DNA of 64,000 bases, taken from the NCBI RefSeq assembly GCF_003721565.1, contig NZ_RJJE01000017.1, positions 980,636-1,044,635 on the forward strand, in the 5' to 3' direction. The DNA is from Rufibacter immobilis. GTDB taxonomy: Bacteria > Bacteroidota > Bacteroidia > Cytophagales > Hymenobacteraceae. The position numbers were made by a program, and so were the translations under genes. Shown piece by piece: positions 3,924 through 63,873 of this stretch (its first letter is position 1; each line of letters opens with the position of its first letter). The notes beneath the pieces are model-generated. The model saw only the letters and a list, made by a program, of their open reading frames with translations. It was not told the origin of the DNA and did no database searches.

Positions 3924-3964
3924 CCGTTTAGCGCCTGTTTTTCTGAAAACAAGCCGAAAACAGG
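3924..3964. repeat. interspersed palindrome, degenerate
   Basis: CCGTTTAGCGCCTGTTTTT with a right half CTGAAAACAAGCCGAAAACAGG, starting 4 bp after the leuS stop codon. Confidence 0.7.
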
Positions 3965-6962: not shown

Positions 6963-7166
6963 ACTTCTATAACTACCGGCTAAACCAGATTGTTCAGCGT
7001 AGTTTTTGTAAAAGTAACATCTTTTTTTGAGTTCATCCGCGGGCGCGGCCTACCCTAGGGTGCGGCATTTGGCAAGAAGGCACCTGTGCTCCTTTGGCTA
7101 CTTCCAGTATAACTTGAAGTAGAATTTATGCGTACCTATGAAGCCAATCCTTAACACTCAATGCCT

Positions 7167-7649
7167 ATGTCGCTACTATTCATATCACAAAGCCACCGCC
7201 AGACCGCCACTTCCTTGCAAAAAGAGGGGGTTCCTGCGCAGCAACTTCCTTCTACCATTCAATTGGCCCGCGAGACCGCCGAGAGTTGGCTGCACCAGGA
7301 AATTGAGCAGGGAAATCTGCCGCTGGTGATTCAGCTGGTGAATGGGAAATTCCCGGAGAGCAGTGCGCAACTGCTGTTGGAAGAGTTGAAAGACCTGCTG
7401 GTGGCTAAGTTTATTGTGAGGTTGAAGTTCAATTATGCACTTGCCAGAAACGCCGCCTCCATTGTGCTTCCGTTTGTGATGCAACGCCTGGTAGATCACC
7501 TGCAACAGAATCCTCAGTTCAAGACCTGGTGGGATGCCCTAGACCTGCGCAAACACCTACCCTCCAAAGCCGACCTTAAATCTAAGATCAGATCTGTGGG
7601 CCAATCATTGAGTGGAAATGCCTCGGCGAGTGAGAGTGCCTTTGCTTGA
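7167..7649 (+). CDS. hypothetical protein, paralogue of the gene at 8220
   Basis: A 160-residue protein, not recognised. It is clearly paralogous to the protein at 8220-8714: both have an SxLF/PFLQRS..QTA/AQSL start, an IQ(L/I)ARET(A/V)E(S/Q)WL(H/Q)(Q/K)E(I/L)E block near residues 30-50, an AL or AS(I/V)(V)LLPFV(M/L)(Q/K)R(L/V) helix, and QNP(Q/K)(F/M)(K/Q)xWW near the C-terminal third. It appears all-helical, with one fairly hydrophobic segment. I choose the second in-frame ATG (7167; 7161 is also possible) because MSLLF aligns with the paralogue's MSVPF. A palindromic repeat begins 8 bp after the stop. Confidence 0.7.
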   Translation: MSLLFISQSHRQTATSLQKEGVPAQQLPSTIQLARETAESWLHQEIEQGNLPLVIQLVNGKFPESSAQLLLEELKDLLVAKFIVRLKFNYALARNAASIVLPFVMQRLVDHLQQNPQFKTWWDALDLRKHLPSKADLKSKIRSVGQSLSGNASASESAFA

Positions 7650-7655
7650 TAGCTG

Positions 7656-7699
7656 TTGCGTTTAGAGCCTCTTTTTGAAAAAACAGGCTCTAAACGCAA
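7656..7699. repeat. interspersed palindrome
   Basis: GCGTTTAGAGCCTCTTTTT mirrored by AAAAACAGGCTCTAAACGC, with flanking TT/AA extending the pairing. It immediately follows the gene at 7167. Confidence 0.85.
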
Positions 7700-8741: not shown

Positions 8742-8781
8742 GCGTTTAGCGGCTCTTTTTTGAAAAACGGCCGCTAAACGC
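8742..8781. repeat. interspersed palindrome
   Basis: GCGTTTAGCGGCTCTTTTT mirrored by AAAAACGGCCGCTAAACGC: the left AGCGG pairs with the right CCGCT, a compensatory variant of AGGGG/CCCCT. Confidence 0.85.
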
Positions 8782-8788
8782 ATTTTCA

Positions 8789-8826
8789 TAAAAAAAGCCT
8801 CTGCATTACTGCAGAGGCTTTTTTTA
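8789..8826. terminator. bidirectional intrinsic terminator
   Basis: AAAGCCTCTGCA / TGCAGAGGCTTT stem with A and T runs on either side. It serves the plus-strand gene at 8220 and the minus-strand glutamine synthetase. Confidence 0.85.
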
Positions 8827-8843
8827 TGAAATGGAAACTAAGA

Positions 8844-13138: not shown

Positions 13139-13180
13139 GGCGTTTAGGGGCTCTTTTTTTAGAAAAGAGCCCCTAAACAG
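13139..13180. repeat. interspersed palindrome
   Basis: GCGTTTAGGGGCTCTTTTTT mirrored by AAAAGAGCCCCTAAACAG, beginning 8 bp after the stop of the LTA-synthase-like gene. Confidence 0.85.
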
Positions 13181-14559: not shown

Positions 14560-14580
14560 TTTCCGCCTACTAAAATTACC

Positions 14581-14628
14581 TAAACGCAATGGCCCGGCTT
14601 TCTTCTGAAGGCCGGGCCATTGCGTTTA
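14581..14628. terminator. hairpin terminator of mtaB, fused to a palindromic repeat
   Basis: TAAACGCAATGGCCCGGC pairs with GCCGGGCCATTGCGTTTA around an 11-base loop. The outer TAAACGC/GCGTTTA are themselves the ends of the repeat family, and the right arm continues into the repeat at 14622-14661. Confidence 0.75.
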
Positions 14629-14661
14629 GGGGCTCTTTTTCTGAAATCAGGCCAAAACCAG
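14622..14661. repeat. interspersed palindrome, asymmetric subfamily
   Basis: GCGTTTAGGGGCTCTTTTT followed by CTGAAATCAGGCCAAAACCAGC, the same asymmetric right half as at 991. It ends exactly at the stop codon of the SBF-like transporter. Confidence 0.75.
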
Positions 14662-15717: not shown

Positions 15718-16255
15718 GTGCGGCTTAATTGATTAAAATGCGGAACTGATGAACGGTTCAAAGGTACGAAGGGCAGCTTACTTCTGCCTCAGCTTCGCTT
15801 ACCCCACCTCGCTGGCAAAGGTTTTCTTCCTCCAGGAATCCATTCTTGAGAAGAAGTAACCATCTGAAAGCTGTTTAGGGGCTCTTTTCGGAAAAGAGCC
15901 CCTAAACGCACGACTAGTCTTTTCTAGCGCTTTCGTCCGTTCCGGAAGTTTTCATTCTCTTCCACCCTCAACCTAGTGTCCGATTTCATCATATCTCCTG
16001 TTCGGTTCTGAACACCAATCGATTCTACACATTTCATAAATCCTTGATTTAAAGTACTTTAATCACAGGTCGCACTTTTGGTCAGAATCTTGTCAAGAGC
16101 ATCGAAAACGCTTTGCAGAAGGAAACAAGACATCATCTGAAAAGAAATTTGAAAACCGAAGCAACCAAAATACAACTCACTTCATCTTTCTATCCAAAGC
16201 GCTTTACCTGAATTTCCTAATCCAACCTCCACCCTTTATGAATTCCCCCTTTGCT
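15718..16255. other. 538-bp non-coding region between the transporter and the first TonB receptor
   Basis: No coding frame is credible. It contains a palindromic repeat copy at 15870-15909 and a near-palindrome TGATTTAAAGTACTTTAATCA at 16045-16065, possibly an operator for the receptor gene. I see no RNA gene. Confidence 0.5.
15870..15909. repeat. interspersed palindrome
   Basis: GCTGTTTAGGGGCTCTTTTC mirrored by GAAAAGAGCCCCTAAACGC. Confidence 0.85.
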
Positions 16256-18700
16256 ATGAAAAATCTCTATACCTTCTTTTTTCTCGCTTGCTTTTGCCTC
16301 TGTTGTACCTTCAAGGCTTGGGCGCAGACCGGCCAAGGGTTGACCGGAACGGTGGTGGACGCCAAAGGCGAGCCGCTCAGCTACGGCACGGTGGCCCTCA
16401 TCCGGAAAGCCGATGCCGCGGTGGTAGACGGGGCAGGTGTAGAAGTCAGCGGCCAATTTAAGCTCAAGAGCCCCGCCCCCGGCACCTATTTCCTGAAAGT
16501 TACCGCCATGGGCTATGGCACGCTGGAGACTCCCGCCTTTGAGGTGAACCAGCCGGGCTTTCAGAAAGAGTTCGGGAAACTGGGGCTGGCGCAGGACTCT
16601 AAAATGCTGAAGGAAGTGACTGTAGAATCCATGCGGCCCACTATCATCAGCCACCCCGACAAAATGGTGGTGAGCGTGGAAGGCACCGTGATGGCCGCCG
16701 GCAGCACCGCCATGGAAGTTTTGTCTAAATCGCCGGGCGTGTGGGTAGACCAGGACGGCAACATCCAGCTCAACGGCAAGGCGGGCGTACGGGTCATGAT
16801 TGACGGCAAACTGACCTACATGAGCGGCAAACAGCTGCAGACCATGCTCCAGTCCATGCCCGCCGACAACATCAAAGACCTGGAGATCATCACCAACCCT
16901 TCGTCTAAATTCGATGCCGAGGGAAATTCGGGCATCATCAACATCAACCTGAAGAAAAATCAGATGACTGGTCTGAACGGCAGCGTGTACAGCGGCTACC
17001 AGTACAACAAACTGCACGGCTACTCGGCGGGCACCAACATCAACTATAAGAGCGGCCAGTGGAATTCCTTCCTGAACGCCGATTTCGGCAGGAGGACGAA
17101 TTTGCGCACCAACACCATGACCCGACTTTTCTGGCAGGAAGGCCAGCCCACCAGCTTTGACCAACGCGGGCGCGAGGAAACCTTCCGAAATGTGCCGTCG
17201 GTACGCTTGGGCACCGATTACCAGCTGAACGACAAACACAGCATCGGGGTCATGGCCTATGTGATGTCTGTAGACTATGACAATTCCTTCGTGACCGAGA
17301 CGTACCTGCGCAACAGCAACCCAGTGGAAGACTCGCTCATCAACGCCCGGAACCTGGTTGCCGCCGATTATTTCAACATCACTTTAAACGGGCACTACGC
17401 CTTTAAACTAGACACGCTTGGCAGCACCCTCACCACTGACGTGGACTACGTGAAAATCACCGATAACAATGACGCGGGGTTCTTCAACAGAGGCCAGTAC
17501 GTGAACCAGGCGCCACAGCTCCGGCTGGAGCAACTGGGCAGCTACAACCCCACCACCTTCCACATCTATTCGGCCAAGGCCGATTTCTCCCGGAGATTCC
17601 AAAACAAGAGCAAACTGGAAGCGGGTCTGAAAGCCAGTTACGTGGAGTCTGACAACGAGCTGCGGTTCTATTTTGTAGAGGGAAAGAATCAGCGCCCAGA
17701 TCCAAACCGGAGCAACCACTTTATATATAAGGAGAACATTTACGCCGGGTACGCGAACTACAGTGCCAACCTGGGCGACCGCTGGAGCGTGCAGGCGGGG
17801 CTACGGGCGGAGCAGACGGTCTCCAAAGGCAGATCTGTGACCCTGAACCAGACCACGCCGCGCCGTTACCTGGATTTCTTCCCCAGCCTCTTCCTGCAAC
17901 AGAAAGTAAGCGACAACTACCAAGTGACCTATAACTACAGCCGCCGCATCAACCGTCCGCAGTACGATGACCTGAACCCGTTCATTTTCTACCTGGATCC
18001 TTTGACCTGGGCCCAAGGCAATCCCGACCTTCGGCCGCAGTACACCCACTCCTTCCAGGTTTCACAGACGTTCAAGAAAGACTACATCCTCACGCTGGGT
18101 TACGCGCACACCAAAGATTTCATCGCGGAGATTCCGGTGCAGAACAATGAAACCAACACCACCATCTTCTCGCAGCGCAACGTGGATGCCTTCAAGAACC
18201 TGAACGGTACGCTGGTGGTGCCGGTACGCATCATGAAGAAATGGGAGGCGAGCAACAACCTGGGCTTCGGGTTCCAATCCTTCACCACGTATTTGCAGAG
18301 CAATCAGCCTATCCTGAACGAGCAGTTCTATTACATGCTCAACTCCAACCACACGCTTCAGCTGCCCCAAAAAATAAAGATGGAGCTGAACCTGGGCTTT
18401 CAGGGTCCGCAGGCGTACGGCCTCTACACCATTGAACGTACCTGGTGGCTGGACTCCGGCCTCAAGCGCTCCTTCCTGAAAGACAACCTGGATGTGAGCC
18501 TCACCGTGACCGATCTCTTCAGAACCCGCAAGGTAGTGGGCTCCGCCAACTTTGACGGCAACGTGAACGCCTTTGACCAGTACTTCGCGGCGCAGAGCTT
18601 TAGGGTGAACCTGCGCTACCGTTTCAGCAAAGGCCAGAAGTTTGAGCAGCAGCGCCGCTCCACCAACCTGGAGGAACTGGACCGCGCCGGCGGCAATTAA
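16256..18700 (+). CDS. TonB-dependent receptor-like outer-membrane beta-barrel protein (copy 1)
   Basis: 814 residues. A signal peptide (MKNLYTFFFLACFCLCC...AWAQ) is followed by a carboxypeptidase-regulatory-like domain (GTVVDAKGEPLSYGTVALI). A plug region carries VVSVEGTVMAAGSTAMEVLSKSPGVWVDQDGNIQLNGKAGVRVMIDGK, and a large outer-membrane barrel of the OMP_b-brl_3 type follows, ending RVNLRYRFSKGQKFEQQ. It is likely a TonB-linked or receptor-like outer-membrane transporter; the ligand is unknown. I use the ATG at 16256 rather than 16238: it gives a clean signal peptide and makes the protein exactly as long as the paralogue at 19125. There is no SusD-like partner next to it. Confidence 0.88.
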   Translation: MKNLYTFFFLACFCLCCTFKAWAQTGQGLTGTVVDAKGEPLSYGTVALIRKADAAVVDGAGVEVSGQFKLKSPAPGTYFLKVTAMGYGTLETPAFEVNQPGFQKEFGKLGLAQDSKMLKEVTVESMRPTIISHPDKMVVSVEGTVMAAGSTAMEVLSKSPGVWVDQDGNIQLNGKAGVRVMIDGKLTYMSGKQLQTMLQSMPADNIKDLEIITNPSSKFDAEGNSGIININLKKNQMTGLNGSVYSGYQYNKLHGYSAGTNINYKSGQWNSFLNADFGRRTNLRTNTMTRLFWQEGQPTSFDQRGREETFRNVPSVRLGTDYQLNDKHSIGVMAYVMSVDYDNSFVTETYLRNSNPVEDSLINARNLVAADYFNITLNGHYAFKLDTLGSTLTTDVDYVKITDNNDAGFFNRGQYVNQAPQLRLEQLGSYNPTTFHIYSAKADFSRRFQNKSKLEAGLKASYVESDNELRFYFVEGKNQRPDPNRSNHFIYKENIYAGYANYSANLGDRWSVQAGLRAEQTVSKGRSVTLNQTTPRRYLDFFPSLFLQQKVSDNYQVTYNYSRRINRPQYDDLNPFIFYLDPLTWAQGNPDLRPQYTHSFQVSQTFKKDYILTLGYAHTKDFIAEIPVQNNETNTTIFSQRNVDAFKNLNGTLVVPVRIMKKWEASNNLGFGFQSFTTYLQSNQPILNEQFYYMLNSNHTLQLPQKIKMELNLGFQGPQAYGLYTIERTWWLDSGLKRSFLKDNLDVSLTVTDLFRTRKVVGSANFDGNVNAFDQYFAAQSFRVNLRYRFSKGQKFEQQRRSTNLEELDRAGGN

Positions 18701-18706
18701 GACCCA

Positions 18707-18753
18707 TTTGCGTTTAGGGGCTGTTTTTGGAAAAACGGCCCCTAAACGCAAAC
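18707..18753. repeat. interspersed palindrome with flanking pairing
   Basis: Core GCGTTTAGGGGCTGTTTTT / AAAAACGGCCCCTAAACGC at 18710-18749. Flanking TTT/AAA extend the stem. It begins just after the stop of receptor copy 1. Confidence 0.85.
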
Positions 18754-23729: not shown

Positions 23730-23770
23730 TTGATGTAACATCAATGGCACATTATCACTCTGATAATGCC
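23730..23770 (-). promoter_or_regulatory. expression platform of the fluoride riboswitch
   Basis: On the minus strand two hairpins follow the aptamer: GGCATTATCA / TGATAATGTGCC, then TTGATGT / ACATCAA. The second ends immediately before the AGAGGAG ribosome-binding site, so control of translation initiation or attenuation is possible. The mechanism is inferred. Confidence 0.55.
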
Positions 23771-23832
23771 GAAGCAGGAGTCATCAGCCTACAGGAAAGG
23801 CGGTTTATAACAGGTGGTACCCCATCACCCTA
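23768..23832 (-). ncRNA. fluoride (crcB) riboswitch aptamer
   Basis: Read on the minus strand: GGGTGATGGGGTACCACC, then AAACCGCC, then GGCTGATGACTCCTGC, in that order and spacing. These are the conserved blocks of the crcB/fluoride riboswitch: the GGNGATGG start, the CCGCC pseudoknot partner and the GCTGATGRCTCCT end. A promoter lies just upstream at 23841-23871 and a CLC-F gene downstream. A covariance-model search with the Rfam crcB family would settle it; I could not run one. Confidence 0.9.
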
Positions 23833-23840
23833 AGCATTGA

Positions 23841-25402: not shown

Positions 25403-26674
25403 ATGAAGACTTTGCCCCGGATTTTATTTCTTCTGCTGGCTTTGGTTCTGGTGGCTCCGGCCAGCTGGGCTTCTTACCTGCTCCTGCCCATGGACCAGAA
25501 CCAGAAGAACCACCTCAAGGCCTATGGACTAGCGTATTGGTCGCTCCAGCGCCAGGCCGAGGTGGAATGGCTCCTCAATTACAAGGGCGGTGCTTTCGCC
25601 ATGAAACATGCCCCAGAACTGGAGAACGAACTGGTGGTGCGCGGCATCAGCTACCAGACCATTTCAGACGCGCAGTACAGCCAGATCCTCTCAGAGATAG
25701 CCGCCCCCGAGTCTAACATGGACGTGATGAAGCTGGAGAAAGCGCCCAAGATTGCGGTGTATTCCCCCAAATCCAAGCAACCCTGGGACGATGCCGTGAC
25801 GCTGGTGCTGACCTACGCTGAGATACCGTATGACATTGTCTATGACCCCGATATCCTGGAGGACAAATTACCCAAGTACGATTGGCTTCACCTGCACCAC
25901 GAAGATTTCACGGGCCAGCAAGGGAAGTTCTACGCCGCCTTCCGGAACGCGCCCTGGTACCTGGACCAGAAGCGGGAATCTGAGGCCATTGCCAAACGCT
26001 TTGGCTTTGGCAGCATTCCCCTGCTTAAGAGCGCGGTGGTGCAGCGCATCAGGGATTTCTGCGCGGGCGGGGGTTTCATGTTTGCCATGTGCTCCGCCAC
26101 TGATACCTATGACATCGCCTTGGCCGCCGTGGGGGTAGACATCACCGAAACCATGTTTGATGGTGATCCCTCAGACCCTCAAGCGCAGCAGAAGCTGAAC
26201 TTTGACAACACCTTTGCCTTCAAGGACTTCACCTTGATCCGGGACCCTTATCACCCCGAGTTCTCCAACATAGACAACTCCCAGCTGGAGCGCGGCCTGC
26301 GGGAGCAGAACGATTATTTCCAGCTCTTCACCTACTCGGCTAAATGGGACCCCATCCCCACCATGCTCACCCAGAACCACGAGAAAACCATCAAAGGGTT
26401 CATGGGCCTAACTACCGGTTTCAAGAAACGCCTGATCAAATCTGAAGTGGTGGTGATGGGCGAGAACAAAGCCATAGACGAAGCCCGTTACATTCATGGC
26501 ACCTTCGGGAAAGGCACCTGGACCTTCTACGGCGGCCATGACCCCGAGGACTACCAGCACTTCGTGGAGGAGGAACCCACCGATCTGGCACTTTATCCCA
26601 ACTCGCCCGGCTACCGTCTGATCCTGAACAACATCCTGTTCCCGGCGGCCAAAAAGAAAAAGCAGAAGACGTGA
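25403..26674 (+). CDS. exported protein of the Bacteroidota family often annotated asparagine synthetase B
   Basis: 423 residues starting with a signal peptide (MKTLPRILFLLLALVLVAPASWA). The mature part has KIAVYSPKSKQPWDDAVTLVLTYAEIPYDIVYD and YDWLHLHHEDFTGQQGKFY, and FCAGGGFMFAMCSATDTYDIALAA resembles a glutamine-amidotransferase-like (DJ-1/ThuA-like) nucleophile elbow with a cysteine. GKGTWTFYGGHDPEDYQH follows near the C-terminus. I recall such proteins carrying an asparagine synthetase B label, which the sequence does not support. The exported location makes amide metabolism unlikely. It lies alone between divergent and convergent neighbours. Confidence 0.65.
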   Translation: MKTLPRILFLLLALVLVAPASWASYLLLPMDQNQKNHLKAYGLAYWSLQRQAEVEWLLNYKGGAFAMKHAPELENELVVRGISYQTISDAQYSQILSEIAAPESNMDVMKLEKAPKIAVYSPKSKQPWDDAVTLVLTYAEIPYDIVYDPDILEDKLPKYDWLHLHHEDFTGQQGKFYAAFRNAPWYLDQKRESEAIAKRFGFGSIPLLKSAVVQRIRDFCAGGGFMFAMCSATDTYDIALAAVGVDITETMFDGDPSDPQAQQKLNFDNTFAFKDFTLIRDPYHPEFSNIDNSQLERGLREQNDYFQLFTYSAKWDPIPTMLTQNHEKTIKGFMGLTTGFKKRLIKSEVVVMGENKAIDEARYIHGTFGKGTWTFYGGHDPEDYQHFVEEEPTDLALYPNSPGYRLILNNILFPAAKKKKQKT

Positions 26675-26705
26675 TAGCTTCTGATCAAAGACGTTAGCAA
26701 TCTCA

Positions 26706-26763
26706 AAAAGAGAGGCGTTTAGGGGCTGTTTTTGGAAAAACAGCCCCTAAACGCCTCTCTTTT
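26706..26763. repeat. interspersed palindrome nested in a locus-specific stem (58 bp)
   Basis: Core GCGTTTAGGGGCTGTTTTT / AAAAACAGCCCCTAAACGC at 26715-26754. Outside it AAAAGAGAG (26706-26714) pairs with CTCTCTTTT (26755-26763), giving arms of 28 bp without mismatch around a GG centre. Confidence 0.9.
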
Positions 26764-26788
26764 ATATTCAGGATAATCTGATGCTAAT

Positions 26789-27440: not shown

Positions 27441-27484
27441 TTGCGTTTAGGGCCTGTTTTTCTAAAAACAGGCCCTAAACGCAA
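27441..27484. repeat. interspersed palindrome
   Basis: GCGTTTAGGGCCTGTTTTT mirrored by AAAAACAGGCCCTAAACGC, with flanking TT/AA. GGGCC pairs with GGCCC, another compensatory variant. Confidence 0.88.
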
Positions 27485-32659: not shown

Positions 32660-33949
32660 ATGCGACAGCTTACTTTGCCCTTCTCTGAGCTCCAAGTTCC
32701 GGTTTCCCAGTGGAAGCAACAGGCGTTGGCTTGGGCAGCCCAGCACCATGAGGTAGTGGCCTATTATGAGCCAAATGATATTCCTTACCGTCACGGGGCT
32801 TTCCAGAACCAGCTGGGCGTTTGCAGAAAGGCTACTACTTCCTCCATCAGTTCCTGGCAAGAACTGGAGCTGGCCCTAAATCAGAAAAGGGAAGCCCCCC
32901 TGCTGGGCTTTCTGGGCTATGACCTCAAAAACAGCCTGGAAAAACTGAGCAGCGGGCAACCAGACCACATTGGGTTTCCCGATCTCTACTTTTTCCAGCC
33001 CGAGATTTGGCTCCGCTGGGAAGAAGACGCTGTCCTGATCTTTTCTGAGACGGAAGCGCCGGAGACAGTGGCGCAGGCAATACAGGGCATGACGTTTAGC
33101 GGCTCTTTTTCAAAAAACAGCGTTAAAACAACCCCGCGGGTTTCTAAGGAGGAATACCTGCAAACCGTGGAATACCTAAGACAGTGCATTCTGGAGGGCG
33201 AGGTCTACGAGGTGAATTACTGTCAGGAGTTTTACACCGAACGGACGGAGCTGGAACCGCTTTCGCTCTTCTGGAAACTCAACCGCGCCTCCCCTACTCC
33301 ATTTGCAGGTTTACTTAAACTGAAGGATCGTTACTTGCTCTGTGCCAGCCCAGAAAGGTTTTTAAAAAGAGAAGAAAATCTCCTTATCACTCAGCCCATT
33401 AAAGGAACCATCCGGCGGGGAAGCACTCCCGAGGAAGACCAAAAGCAGCGCCAGGCATTAGCCTCCAGTGAGAAGGAACAGGCCGAGAACATGATGATTG
33501 TGGACTTGGTGCGCAATGACCTGAACCGCGTGGCCCAAACCGGCACCGTGCAGGTAGAGGAGCTTTTTGGGTTGTACGGGTTTCAGTTTGTCTGGCAGAT
33601 GATTTCCACGGTGACCGGCCGGGTACTGAGCCAAACCAGCAACGTAGACATCTTGAAAGCCGCCTTCCCCATGGGTAGCATGACTGGGGCCCCTAAAATA
33701 AGGGCATTGCAGCTGATTGAGCAGGTGGAGAAAACCAAACGCGGGCTCTACTCCGGCGCCTTCGGGTATTTCCTCCCTTCCGGCGACTTTGATTTTAACG
33801 TGGTCATCCGCAGCCTGCAATATAACGCTGCTACCGGTTATCTCACTTTTGAGGTAGGCAGTGCCATCACCTATGACTCTGATCCGGAGCAGGAATACCA
33901 GGAGTGTCTTTTGAAGGCGGCGGCCATCAGAAACGTGCTTGAAAAATGA
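32660..33949 (+). CDS. pabB: Aminodeoxychorismate synthase component I
   Basis: A 429-residue chorismate-binding enzyme that forms 4-amino-4-deoxychorismate for folate synthesis, with ammonia from a PabA partner not encoded nearby. Visible are PIKGTIRRGSTPEEDQ, EQAENMMIVDLVRNDLNRVA, GSMTGAPKIRALQLIEQVEKTKRGLYSGAFGYF and the terminal ITYDSDPEQEYQECLLKA. Anthranilate synthase TrpE is less likely given length and N-terminus. Residues around 145-157 (TFSGSFSKNSVKT), in the linker before VSKEEYLQTVEYLRQ, are encoded by an in-frame copy of the interspersed palindrome (33092-33130). Confidence 0.88.
   Translation: MRQLTLPFSELQVPVSQWKQQALAWAAQHHEVVAYYEPNDIPYRHGAFQNQLGVCRKATTSSISSWQELELALNQKREAPLLGFLGYDLKNSLEKLSSGQPDHIGFPDLYFFQPEIWLRWEEDAVLIFSETEAPETVAQAIQGMTFSGSFSKNSVKTTPRVSKEEYLQTVEYLRQCILEGEVYEVNYCQEFYTERTELEPLSLFWKLNRASPTPFAGLLKLKDRYLLCASPERFLKREENLLITQPIKGTIRRGSTPEEDQKQRQALASSEKEQAENMMIVDLVRNDLNRVAQTGTVQVEELFGLYGFQFVWQMISTVTGRVLSQTSNVDILKAAFPMGSMTGAPKIRALQLIEQVEKTKRGLYSGAFGYFLPSGDFDFNVVIRSLQYNAATGYLTFEVGSAITYDSDPEQEYQECLLKAAAIRNVLEK
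33092..33130. repeat. interspersed palindrome inside the pabB coding region
   Basis: ACGTTTAGCGGCTCTTTTT followed by AAAAAACAGCGTTAAAACA, read in frame as TFSGSFSKNSVKT in the domain linker. Confidence 0.8.
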
Positions 33950-40474: not shown

Positions 40475-40520
40475 TTTCCGTTTAGGGGCTCTTTTTGAAA
40501 AAAGAGCCCCTAAACGGAAA
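40475..40520. repeat. interspersed palindrome with flanking pairing
   Basis: Core CCGTTTAGGGGCTCTTTTT / AAAAAGAGCCCCTAAACGG at 40478-40517, extended by TTT/AAA. Confidence 0.88.
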
Positions 40521-42775: not shown

Positions 42776-42815
42776 CTGTTTAGAGGCTCTTTTTCTAAAA
42801 ACAGGCGCTAAACGC
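42776..42815. repeat. interspersed palindrome
   Basis: CTGTTTAGAGGCTCTTTTT followed by CTAAAAACAGGCGCTAAACGC, with several arm mismatches. Confidence 0.75.
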
Positions 42816-49393: not shown

Positions 49394-49441
49394 TTTTGCG
49401 TTTAGCGGCTCTTTTTCCAAAAAGAGCCGCTAAACGCAAAA
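49394..49441. repeat. interspersed palindrome with flanking pairing
   Basis: Core GCGTTTAGCGGCTCTTTTT / AAAAAGAGCCGCTAAACGC, perfect, with TTTT/AAAA continuing the stem on both sides. Confidence 0.9.
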
Positions 49442-49553: not shown

Positions 49554-53120
<3,567 letters not shown>

Positions 53121-53141
53121 CGGTACGTGACCATAAAAACT

Positions 53142-53193
53142 ACGGGTGCGTTTAGGGGCTCTTTTTCGAAAAAGAGCCCCTAAACGCACCCGT
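53142..53193. repeat. interspersed palindrome nested in a locus-specific stem (52 bp)
   Basis: Core GCGTTTAGGGGCTCTTTTT / AAAAAGAGCCCCTAAACGC around a CG centre, extended outward by ACGGGT / ACCCGT; the whole 52 bp is a perfect palindrome. It follows smc. Confidence 0.92.
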
Positions 53194-53268
53194 TTCTATT
53201 ACACCCTCTGCTATAAGAAATTCTGGAGAGAGTTACCATTACTCCTACCCAAGACGTTAACTACCAAA

Positions 53269-53328
53269 AACCCAAGAGCCGTTTAGGGGCCGTTTTTCCA
53301 AAAACGGCCCCTAAACGGCTCTTGGGTT
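53269..53328. repeat. interspersed palindrome nested in a locus-specific stem (60 bp)
   Basis: Core CCGTTTAGGGGCCGTTTTT / AAAAACGGCCCCTAAACGG, extended by AACCCAAGAG / CTCTTGGGTT. It lies 85 bp from the previous copy and ends 17 bp before the acyltransferase stop. Confidence 0.92.
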
Positions 53329-53344
53329 GTATAGATTAAAAAAT

Positions 53345-53893
53345 CTACCGAACGCCCTGGCTGGGATATTTAGGGGTAACGGTGCGGTAGAACGCCAAAA
53401 TTTTCTCCATATCGGCGTTGAAGTCTCCGGTGGGATAAATGGCGGGGCCTACGCCGGCTTCTTTTTTGGCATAATCCAGGTAACCCAACAGAATAGGTAC
53501 CCCGGCTCCCACGGCGGTATGGTAAAAGCCTTTCTTCCAGCGGGGCTGATACTTGCGGGTTCCCTCAGGGGTAACCAACATCACCATTTCCTCGTGCTGA
53601 TGGAAAATGTCAATCATGGCCGCTACCAGATTGTTGTTTTTCTTTCGGTCTACCGGTACGGCTCCCATGGCTTTAAGCAGATAGCCCATGGGAAAGAAGA
53701 AAGCTTCTTTTTTGATGGTGAGTTTTACGGGAACATCCATCAGGTAGAAGGCGGCGCGGGCGTACACAAAATCCCAGTTACTGGTGTGGGGCGCGGCCAC
53801 CATAATGGCTTGTTTGATATTAGGTGGCATGCCGCCCTTCAGCTTCCAACCGGCAACTTTAAAAATAACCTTAGCTAATGCTTTCCCGAACAT
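53345..53893 (-). CDS. 1-acyl-sn-glycerol-3-phosphate acyltransferase-like protein
   Basis: A 182-residue PlsC-type acyltransferase. The catalytic HX4D box is APHTSNWDFVYAR; VPVKLTIKKEAFFFPMGYLLKAMGAVPVDRKK and the substrate-binding VTPEGTRKYQPRWKKGFY follow. It is a short single-domain form without an obvious N-terminal helix. Transfers an acyl chain to lysophosphatidate or a related lipid at the membrane. ATG at 53893. Confidence 0.87.
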   Translation of the reverse strand: MFGKALAKVIFKVAGWKLKGGMPPNIKQAIMVAAPHTSNWDFVYARAAFYLMDVPVKLTIKKEAFFFPMGYLLKAMGAVPVDRKKNNNLVAAMIDIFHQHEEMVMLVTPEGTRKYQPRWKKGFYHTAVGAGVPILLGYLDYAKKEAGVGPAIYPTGDFNADMEKILAFYRTVTPKYPSQGVR

Positions 53894-56315: not shown

Positions 56316-56356
56316 TGCTGTTTTTAACCAGATTTCAGAAAAAGGGCCGCTAAACG
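56316..56356. repeat. interspersed palindrome, degenerate
   Basis: Left half TGCTGTTTTTAACCAGATTTC, right arm AGAAAAAGGGCCGCTAAACGG. It ends 4 bp before the accA stop codon. Confidence 0.6.
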
Positions 56357-57542: not shown

Positions 57543-57616
57543 GGTCCGGTAGTTCAGTTGGTTAGAATGCCGCCCTGTCACGGCGGAGGTCGCGGGTTCG
57601 AGTCCCGTCCGGACCG
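57543..57616 (+). tRNA. tRNA-Asp (anticodon GTC), copy 1
   Basis: 74 nt. Acceptor stem GGTCCGG / CCGGACC with discriminator G, as expected for Asp. The anticodon arm is CCGCC-CTGTCAC-GGCGG with anticodon GTC, and the T arm contains GGTTCGAGTCC. CCA is not encoded. A terminator follows immediately. Confidence 0.97.
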
Positions 57617-58515: not shown

Positions 58516-58589
58516 GGTCCGGTAGTTCAGTTGGTTAGAATGCCGCCCTGTCACGGCGGAGGTCGCGGGTTCGAGTCCCGTCCGGACCG
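58516..58589 (+). tRNA. tRNA-Asp (anticodon GTC), copy 2
   Basis: 74 nt, identical by eye to copy 1 at 57543-57616, with its own promoter and terminator. Confidence 0.97.
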
Positions 58590-59361: not shown

Positions 59362-59550
59362 AGTTAAGGGTGTTTTATAAGCTCCTCATACTTGATTAAT
59401 CTTTTGATGCAATAGAAACACCTGGCCTAGCTTGTAGAAAGCTCCACTGCTAATATCTAAGCTTCACTTCAACTATCAACTTCATTATAATGAAATACAA
59501 TCACTTATGATTGACTCACAAAGTTTCTATCTATTAGAACAAGTTCTTAT

Positions 59551-59615
59551 CATTACAAAGTTAAACTTAATTTACATTTGTATTACAAATGTAAATTAAG
59601 TTTAACTTTGTAATG
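59551..59615. repeat. perfect AT-rich palindrome, 32-bp arms
   Basis: CATTACAAAGTTAAACTTAA starts the left arm; its exact complement ends the right arm at 59615. The centre is a single base at 59583. TACATTTG occurs symmetrically on both strands near the centre, matching the -7 consensus. It is not related to the GC-cored interspersed family. Confidence 0.92.
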
Positions 59616-59896
59616 AGCCGTACAAGTTTGGTTACTTATATAAGTATGAATTTGTTTTAGCACCAGAAGATACCCCAAGGCGATGACTTCAACTTCTTCT
59701 GCCAATAAGCCACTCGTATTATGGGCAACCGCTTAACTTAATTCTACTATTGGTTCCTCTTAATGGTTCATACATTTTGTAGCTCCATAAGAGTTAAGAA
59801 ATAGATATTCAAATTTCACTTGATCTTTGGGGAATCAACAGTCGGCCTTTTCTGCATATTAAACTTTTACCAGACCAACCCTTTAATAGCTCACAC

Positions 59897-61917: not shown

Positions 61918-63720
61918 ATGGATTATAACGATAGCCCTACCGCAACATTCACCGCAGATCCGCATAGTTTTTCGCAACCTCAGAAAGCCCGTATTACGCA
62001 TGTAGATTGGCAACTGGAAGTAGACTTCAACACCAAAACCATTCATGGATCTGGTATCTACCACCTGGCGCACAGCGAGACCGACGAGATTGTGCTGGAT
62101 GTACGGAACCTGCAGATATTGGCCGTTTACCTTGATGACGAGTCGCAGGCAACGGATTTCAGGCTGGGGGAGGAAAAACCGTTCCTGGGCCAGGGCCTGC
62201 ACATCCCGCTGCTCCCCCAAACCAGGAGCCTTCGTTTAGAATTTAAGACTACGCCCGGTTCTGCGGCCTTGCAGTGGCTGGAGCCAACCCAGACCGCGGG
62301 TAAAACACAGCCCTTTCTGTTCACGCAGTCACAGGCCATTCTGGCGCGCACCTGGTTGCCGTGCCAGGACAGCCCCGGAATACGGTTCACGTACACGGCA
62401 AAGGTGACAGTGCCCGCTCACCTGTTGCCCCTTATGAGCGCCGATAATCCGCAGCAGAAAAACGAAAACGGCACTTACTTCTTTAAGATGGAGAACCCTA
62501 TTCCGTCTTATCTGCTGTCCCTGGCGGTGGGCGATTTGGTTTTCTCCCCCATTGGCGACCGGTGCGGTGTTTACGCCGAACCAAGCTCCATAGAGGCCGC
62601 CGCCTATGAGTTCGCCGACACTGAGAAGATGCTGCTGGCCGCCGAGGAACTCTACGGGCCTTATCTCTGGGGCCGCTATGATTTACTGGTGTTACCCCCC
62701 AGTTTCCCGTTTGGCGGCATGGAAAACCCCAAACTCACCTTCGCCACTCCCACCATTATAGCCGGCGATCGCTCACTCACCAGTCTGGTGGCCCATGAAC
62801 TGGCCCATTCTTGGTCGGGCAACCTGGTCACCAACGCCACCTGGAATGATTTTTGGCTCAACGAAGGCTTTACCGTTTATTTTGAGCGTCGTATCATGGA
62901 AGCACTCTACGGTCCTGAATACGCCGAGATGCTCCACACCCTGGGTTACCAGGACCTCCTGCACACGCTCGATGACCTAAGCTCTTCTCCCCTGGACACC
63001 TGCCTGAAACTGAACCTGGAGAACCGCGACCCTGACGAAGGCCTAACCGAGATTGCCTATGAGAAAGGGAACTACTTTCTGCGGCACCTGGAAAGACTGG
63101 TGGGGCGGGAACGGTTCGATGGTTTTGTGAAGAAGTACTTCAGCACGTTCAGGTTCCAATCCATGGACACGGCTGGTTTTGAGCAGTTTTTGGAAAAAGA
63201 GCTCCTAAACGGAAACGAGGAACTGCGCCGGCAAGTGAATACCCAAGGTTGGATCCATTCTCCCGGTTTACCCGCCGGCACTCCCGCCATGCATGCCGCG
63301 CTGTTTGAGAAAGTTTTGCAGGAACTACATAAGTGGCTGGCGGGCACTCCGGCCCAAGAGCTGGTTACCCAGGGCTGGAGCACGCATGAATGGTTGTTCT
63401 TCCTCACGAACTTGCCAGACACTCTGGGCATGGCGCAGCTGGAAGAGCTGGACCATGCTTTTGGATTTACCCTGTCCCACAACGCAGAGATTCAGGCAGA
63501 GTGGTACCGGCACGCCATCCGGCACGGCTATACCGCCGCCTACGCAGCACTGGAGGAGTTTCTGGTGCGGGTGGGCCGACGGAAATTCCTGCTCCCGCTC
63601 TACAAAGCGCTGCTGCAAACCCCGGAGGGCAAATCTCTGGCCCAGCAGATCTACCAGAAGGCCCGGCCCAATTACCACGCCGTCTCCACCAGTTCATTAG
63701 ATGCCCTGCTGCGGGTCTAA
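61918..63720 (+). CDS. M1-family aminopeptidase (leukotriene A4 hydrolase-like)
   Basis: A 600-residue zinc aminopeptidase. An N-terminal beta domain contains the exopeptidase motif FPFGGMENPKLTF. The zinc site is HELAHSWSGN (HExxH from residue 294) with the third ligand Glu in NEGFTVYFERR. The C-terminal helical repeat domain is of the LTA4H_C type. No signal peptide, so probably cytoplasmic. The residues FLEKELLNGNEELRR in the region joining the catalytic and C-terminal domains are encoded across a palindrome copy (63174-63212). A canonical palindrome follows the stop. Confidence 0.92.
   Translation: MDYNDSPTATFTADPHSFSQPQKARITHVDWQLEVDFNTKTIHGSGIYHLAHSETDEIVLDVRNLQILAVYLDDESQATDFRLGEEKPFLGQGLHIPLLPQTRSLRLEFKTTPGSAALQWLEPTQTAGKTQPFLFTQSQAILARTWLPCQDSPGIRFTYTAKVTVPAHLLPLMSADNPQQKNENGTYFFKMENPIPSYLLSLAVGDLVFSPIGDRCGVYAEPSSIEAAAYEFADTEKMLLAAEELYGPYLWGRYDLLVLPPSFPFGGMENPKLTFATPTIIAGDRSLTSLVAHELAHSWSGNLVTNATWNDFWLNEGFTVYFERRIMEALYGPEYAEMLHTLGYQDLLHTLDDLSSSPLDTCLKLNLENRDPDEGLTEIAYEKGNYFLRHLERLVGRERFDGFVKKYFSTFRFQSMDTAGFEQFLEKELLNGNEELRRQVNTQGWIHSPGLPAGTPAMHAALFEKVLQELHKWLAGTPAQELVTQGWSTHEWLFFLTNLPDTLGMAQLEELDHAFGFTLSHNAEIQAEWYRHAIRHGYTAAYAALEEFLVRVGRRKFLLPLYKALLQTPEGKSLAQQIYQKARPNYHAVSTSSLDALLRV
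63174..63212. repeat. interspersed palindrome inside the M1 peptidase gene
   Basis: A degenerate left arm GGTTTTGAGCAGTTTTTGG and a good right arm AAAAAGAGCTCCTAAACGG, in frame as GFEQFLEKELLNG. Confidence 0.6.
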
Positions 63721-63733
63721 CCAAGGGCTTTGA

Positions 63734-63783
63734 GCATTGCATTTAGGGGCTCTTTTTGGAAAAAGAGCCCCTAAACGCAATGC
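63734..63783. repeat. interspersed palindrome with flanking pairing
   Basis: Core GCATTTAGGGGCTCTTTTT / AAAAAGAGCCCCTAAACGC, extended by GCATT / AATGC outside the core. It follows the M1 peptidase gene. Confidence 0.88.
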
Positions 63784-63824: not shown

Positions 63825-63873
63825 CAGAAACAGCAGAGCCCGCTGACATCATCAGCGGGCTCTGCTGTTTCTG
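63825..63873. terminator. bidirectional terminator between convergent genes
   Basis: CAGAAACAGCAGAGCCCGCTGA pairs with its complement around a short loop, a 22-bp stem with A/T-rich ends. Confidence 0.82.

Follow-up and report, generated by a model that had tools for sequence, protein, structure and literature searches.

We identified in Rufibacter immobilis a family of palindromes in whose near-perfect copies the shared core is often framed by outer arms that are particular to one locus and that also pair perfectly. We consider it probable (about 0.6) that this outer pairing arose by fold-back template switching, which mirrored one flank onto the other at re-tuned dyads in positions shared between species, with selection acting in addition at terminators, and that the core was not inserted into hairpins in this genome. 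The window, meaning the whole stretch of 64,000 nucleotides that was analysed (contig NZ_RJJE01000017.1, positions 980,636 to 1,044,635), includes four loci for which a preliminary description had reported locus-specific outer arms:

53142-53193, near-perfect palindrome, core 53149-53186, outer arms ACGGGT/ACCCGT, 25-bp stem, 3' of an smc-like gene (49554-53120)
53269-53328, near-perfect palindrome, core 53280-53317, outer arms AACCCAAGAGC/GCTCTTGGGTT, perfect 29-bp stem with a 2-nt centre, 3' of a convergent gene (53345-53893, minus strand)
26706-26763, near-perfect palindrome, core 26716-26753, outer arms AAAAGAGAGG/CCTCTCTTTT, 28-bp stem, convergent genes on either side
49394-49441, near-perfect palindrome, core 49399-49436, outer arms TTTTG/CAAAA, 23-bp stem

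The arms at 53142, 53269 and 26706 read as described and are local sequence. Those at 49394 also pair as described, but TTTTGC/GCAAAA is largely the extended arm consensus (TT[G/C]CGTTTAG), so that this locus represents mostly an extended core. Judged by its gene arrangement, 26706-26763 has the putative layout of a bidirectional terminator, and congeners carry a terminator-type hairpin at the position equivalent to 53142-53193.

Outer pairing was far commoner than chance across the copies sampled. The sample was taken from the window and a further 400 kb of the same genome (G000:C1:1-400000, where G000 is this genome), in all 464 kb out of 4.77 Mb, and the tests excluded elements lying at the end of a stretch or at a joint. 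This sample contained 93 palindromes with two shared-core arms, here called new-dialect arms. An outer perfect run of at least 4 beyond the 36-base core was found in 50 of the 93 (8.8 expected) and a run of at least 6 in 31 (1.4 expected), expectations being obtained by reassigning right flanks among elements (200 shuffles, printed classes summed). The pairing is thus not the chance background that had been named as one ground for refutation. When the core was taken as 38 bases, runs of at least 4 were present in 41 of the 83 near-perfect elements (4.4 expected) and runs of at least 6 in 20 (0.7 expected). Runs of at least 4 were found in 40/82 elements with at least 15 of 18 core pairs, compared with 2/135 with fewer. 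A TTTT or AAAA tract lay within 18 nt, on either strand, of 34 of the 83 near-perfect elements and was missing from the other 49, of which 23 had a run of at least 4 (3.4 expected), indicating that no T- or A-tract is needed.

Concordance between the two sides was scored on 88 of the 93 elements, cores of other than 36 bases being excluded. It was high beyond the core (z 4.5 to 8.9 at positions -2 to -6) and near chance at the inner variable positions 10 and 11 (z 1.7 and 0.9); inner positions 6 and 8 showed some concordance (z 3.7 and 2.6), which we count against the fold-back model. The outer pairing ends abruptly: past the first mismatch, pairing was 0.16-0.24 across four positions and 0.20-0.41 across the next four. 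High outer concordance, near-chance values at positions 10 and 11 and an abrupt end are expected if copying begins at the core's outer edge.

In the mechanism that we propose, a dyad whose two arms match would fold in single-stranded DNA at replication, and the nascent 3' end would fold back onto the core. The folded end would then be lengthened by some bases, copying the flank opposite to it, before returning. One flank would thereby receive the other's reverse complement, and the resulting outer arms would be perfect, local and abruptly ending. At the terminator hairpins (26706, 53142 and 53269), selection for a long stem would keep and lengthen the product. Quasipalindrome template switching is known from reporters and from the histories of RNA genes. 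Template switching has been documented as giving rise to perfect hairpin arms (PMC8794818, PMC3820800), and the quasipalindrome events of E. coli and yeast resemble ours in perfecting or extending the identity of inverted-repeat arms and in giving perfect stems in one step. Here, in contrast, the imprint lies on about half of the near-perfect copies of one repeat family, and on ordinary terminators. With hundreds of comparable hairpins, this genome may record fold-back template switching in a natural setting and help to tell the share of mutation from that of selection where perfect stems arise.

Mirrored flanks were also identified at hairpins without the core. Among core-free terminators with a fully paired T-run, 10 of 32 had a run of at least 4 beyond the T-run (0.7 expected), one of them of at least 20 nt, compared with none of 56 in which the T-run was not fully paired; bases paired beyond the T-run should fall outside the terminated RNA. 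Three features of the window illustrate such extensions:

8784-8831, ordinary terminator, mirror-extended 6 bases past its own T-run
14579-14630, terminator-like hairpin with left outer arm CCTAAACGCAAT, a partial mirrored element arm
14623-14660, plus strand, element with one arm of the new dialect and the other of the old type, the presumed source of the 12 mirrored bases

Read as its reverse complement, the left arm of 14579-14630 matches the 12 bases with which the right-hand element arm begins, and this mirrored copy was absent among the orthologous sequences listed. The smc terminator of the congener G135 likewise mirrors the adjoining element arm GCCCAAAATA. The preliminary description had suggested, as one option, a duplication that mirrors the flank on insertion. 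The mirroring itself finds support, but its coupling to insertion does not, as it appears to act on standing hairpins and at core-free terminators too.

The window includes further palindromes of the family:

7656-7699, near-perfect palindrome, core 9 nt past the stop of 7161-7649 (plus strand)
8743-8780, near-perfect palindrome, beside the ordinary terminator 8784-8831
13142-13178, palindrome, both arms new dialect, 5-nt centre
15873-15907, palindrome, both arms new dialect, short form
18707-18752, near-perfect palindrome, core 10 nt past the stop at 18700
27441-27484, near-perfect palindrome, good hairpins also in several congeners
40475-40520, near-perfect palindrome, 18/18 pairs, outer run 4
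42777-42814, family element, two new arms, 14/18 pairs
63734-63783, near-perfect palindrome, outer arms GCATT/AATGC, one arm mismatch

At the core beginning at 40479, this genome has 18 of 18 pairs and an outer run of 4, whereas ten congeners reach 8-15 pairs and outer runs of 0-4; at 7659 it has 17 pairs, compared with 9-15 in four congeners. Good hairpins with outer pairs are also present at 27444 in G133, G138, G142, G144 and G145, and the outer run of G135 reaches 14 at 18711. Both of these sites are tract-free, indicating that perfection is not always new in this genome; outer runs here and in the congeners are weakly correlated (Spearman 0.42, p 0.10, 16 sites). No copying event was directly observed, the nearest species being 84% identical in smc, and alignment of congener flanks to find the donor flank failed on intergenic DNA that was too diverged, so that no event was polarised. 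An outer run enters a stop codon in one element only (G135), which leaves a test for coding-side donors nearly without cases.

We examined whether the palindrome sites are empty in relatives, as would be expected had the core been inserted into pre-existing hairpins. In orthologous intervals of ten congeners, the congener holds an element in 100 of 114 readable cases where this genome has one and in 24 of 124 where it has none; the control intervals are shorter (29 kb, compared with 50 kb), and nine of the 24 occupied control readings come from a single gap whose element in this genome fell within an ORF call. The eleven intervals with two-new-arm elements were occupied in 75 of 78 readings, the three empty ones being G135 and G145 at 8743 and G135 at 27444. 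Both terminator regions were occupied in every case (9/9 at 26674-26788 and 9/9 at 53120-53326), with no readable congener interval empty. The congener elements at shared positions have species-specific dialects and mostly different outer arms. Insertion into existing hairpins, which had been put forward to explain why the flanks pair, is therefore not supported in this genome. In the comparison of 3' regions that had been recommended, in search of an outer stem standing empty, the terminator sites were all occupied; at 8743, G135 has a 12-bp inverted repeat with a 14-nt spacer and no core. This is the sole sighting that resembles the predicted empty hairpin, and its sequence is unrelated to the flanks here. 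In outgroup genera, hairpins of 14-34 bp without the core follow smc at 10 of 16 loci (two are imperfect, and the frame used to read L155 was wrong), so that the terminator position predates the core; at this distance, insertion and gradual replacement look alike.

Outer stems at the terminators 26706, 53142 and 53269 occur across the genus. We also weighed whether the outer arms are ordinary intrinsic-terminator stems maintained by selection on RNA, with the core as their loop-side part. We regard this as rather unlikely. After smc, 13 of 16 species have the core together with an outer stem that is roughly 6 pairs long or longer, with A/T tracts and with changes on both sides of the stem between species, and most of the stem sequences differ, that shared by G131 and G141 being CCTCTGCC (in this tally the G134 locus is at the end of a contig, a long outer stem is missing from G135 and G140, G132 is mismatched, and the right arm of G141 is cut by a contig end). 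Such covarying stems could be obtained by selection alone. At 26706, a long stem of different sequence is present in seven of ten congeners (G133, G134, G135, G139, G142, G144 and G145), while G138 has a weak stem, G132 a degenerate element and G136 no usable interval. The fraction of T also climbs to 0.50 at runs of at least 8 (eight elements). As in intrinsic terminators, a stem plus A/T tracts is found at 26706 and 53142 in most congeners. Unlike in such terminators, the 49 near-perfect copies with no nearby tract pair outside equally strongly, mismatches in mid-stem are tolerated, and elements also occur within genes. Moreover, selection on RNA should favour G-U over A-C mismatches on the sense strand, whereas the two were about equal both here (118 and 114, 126 elements) and in five congeners (109 and 128, 94 elements), suggesting that the constraint lies at the level of DNA rather than RNA. 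RNA-hairpin selection as the sole cause is weakened by this parity and by the tract-free pairing.

The host family is the more surprising part of the finding, ahead of the outer arms. The strict core GTTTAGNGGCNNTTTTTNNAAAAANNGCCNCTAAAC matched 468 times in the 4.77-Mb genome, where the reversed control pattern never matched. Each of 15 congeners had 0-7 matches to the core, and none of 188 other genomes of the family Hymenobacteraceae had any. A scan with a symmetric weight matrix gave 30 elements for the window; for the additional 400 kb it gave 188, a density of 4.7 per 10 kb, which by extrapolation suggests about 2,200 copies per genome; the density was 3.6-6.1 per 10 kb in ten congeners, and shuffled DNA gave 0-1 elements. 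A covariance model, which gives presence rather than counts (at most the best 31 candidates per genome were scored), placed the dyads in 16/16 genomes of the genus and in 10/187 others, with few copies. Thus, this family of approximately 40-bp dyads is all but restricted to the genus. Six genomes from two other genera of the Hymenobacteraceae hold few dyad copies (L166-L178; 2-6 matches each, both strands counted), and at L168 and L170 two copies lie about 70 bases apart. Within our sample, 174 of 218 elements lay outside called ORFs and 77 of 159 scored lay at most 30 nt from a stop codon; gene calls were greedy ORFs, and counts within coding sequence include false ones. The upstream arm was the better one at 76 elements and the downstream arm at 48 (p 0.015), an orientation signal seen in none of ten other genomes. 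Among the papers listed by literature searches, none dealt with such a palindrome family in this group.

The arms are written in species dialects, CGTTTAGGGGCTSTTTTT in this genome, CGTTTTTGGCCTRTTTTC in G138 and G142, CGTTTTYGGGCTCATTTC in G144 and YGTTTTRRGSCTGTTTTY in G135, while six other congeners are degenerate (10.8-15.7 bits per arm, compared with 19.0-23.4). Arms in this genome have been re-tuned singly to CGTTTAGGGGCTSTTTTT: two new arms are present in 90 elements, and a new arm is combined with an old or degenerate one in 107, and the mismatch asymmetry between arms in the 400 kb was 2.21, compared with 1.31±0.08 expected, five congeners being near chance. Coupling among the 291 new arms was strongest between neighbours, such as TC/TG/CG at positions 11-12; weaker couplings 2-6 positions apart and one 14 apart also exceeded z 5, and clear haplotypes were absent. 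This pattern speaks for a degenerate motif being recognised and against copying from masters, and an origin from few master elements was not supported. Nor was whole-arm copying within one hairpin as the source of the two-new-arm form, positions 10 and 11 being near chance. Matches to the arm motif GTTTAGNGSC fell within dyads in 279 of 284 cases in the 464 kb, and the 5 outside compare with 14 in simulated sequence of the same length. In two-new-arm elements a central GG or CC greatly outnumbers the palindromic dinucleotides (concordance 0.05, compared with 0.36 expected), suggesting that the dyad has a hidden polarity.

Elements with a single new arm, and elements within genes, are also present in the window:

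3925-3962, plus strand, one-new-arm element, 4 nt past a stop codon
32569-32606, plus strand, one-new-arm element
56319-56356, minus strand, one-new-arm element
33093-33130, plus strand, element within the pabB coding sequence (32660-33949)
63174-63211, minus strand, element within an M1 aminopeptidase / leukotriene-A4-hydrolase-like gene (61918-63720)

The pabB element was scored at about the equivalent place in 10/10 congeners (27.7-59.2 bits, each species' own matrix), where it encodes a variable stretch of protein and its codons change between species; the element in the aminopeptidase-like gene was scored in 6/6 congeners read (24-34 bits). A genus-wide family with fixed positions, rewritten in concert between species, calls for a recognising factor, which would presumably act in trans. 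We tentatively propose, as a possibility somewhat short of even odds, that a DNA factor acting in trans, its specificity shifting between species, recognises about 2,000 fixed sites per species one arm at a time, that these sites follow its dialect even within pabB, and that fold-back copying then mirrors the flanks of those that have been perfected.

A different source of the dyads would be REPs mobilised by a Y1 transposase encoded in this genome. The genome does encode a REP-associated tyrosine transposase (RAYT; NF047646, 98.7 bits, cut-off 80), Y1 matches were found in 15/16 genomes of the genus, and, as a raw count, elements stand on both sides within about 520 nt at 6 of the 12 Y1 loci. 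The placement 3' of genes and the mostly extragenic distribution given above are likewise REP-like. REP and BIME palindromes of the GTAG and CGTC families (PMC3733652) are similarly 20-40 bp long, of high copy number and mostly 3' of genes, with some intragenic. The dyads here, in contrast, have 18-bp arms and a T-run centre, set against CGTC stems of 8-9 bp, and the base frequencies of arms and flanks contain no GTAG or CGTC motif at the palindrome end. Their positions are conserved genus-wide and a tight link to a local RAYT is absent: no element lies less than 70 nt from any of the 12 Y1 ORFs, elements are common everywhere, and other small palindromes flank the gene on both sides at three of the 12 loci (L087, L090 and L098). 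G142, moreover, has no Y1 match and yet a strong dialect. We therefore find mobilisation by this transposase improbable. The one Y1 match of this genome, the RAYT at L094:1432-1977, is itself adjoined by the small palindromes GGGATTTATCAATCCC and CCGGATTTACTAATCCGG, which may be its real REPs.

It is very improbable that the palindrome is a mobile element that enters the loops of pre-existing hairpins. The core-free outgroup hairpins at the smc site and the core-free repeat of G135 at 8743 would fit such entry, as would one exact 36-base sequence seen 9 times among the 93, but the occupied congener sites refute it for those sites, arms were exchanged singly rather than as whole units, and strong long-range coupling among the new arms is absent. 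Least probable of all, and hardly credible in our view, is a DNA-uptake signal whose copies pair up to form terminators, as known from Neisseriaceae. High copy number, dialects that differ between species, oppositely oriented arms at the ends of genes and turnover arm by arm recall the species-specific variants of a many-copy motif there (PMC3630211), but the repeated unit in this genome is a dyad of 38-40 bp and lone arms are not enriched.

Finally, we noted other structured sequences in the window. An Rfam cmscan at gathering scores gave no model match for the palindrome and returned only two tRNAs and a fluoride riboswitch. Two hairpins lack the core, a 32-bp perfect, AT-rich inverted repeat with a 3-nt centre at 59550-59616 and a 22-bp perfect hairpin, CAGAAACAGCAGAGCCCGCTGA, at 63825-63873. 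The fluoride riboswitch (23768-23838, minus strand) has two family elements at most 300 bases away. The tRNA genes (57543-57616 and 58516-58589) lie in a 197-base repeat whose copies are 91% identical and 973 bases apart.
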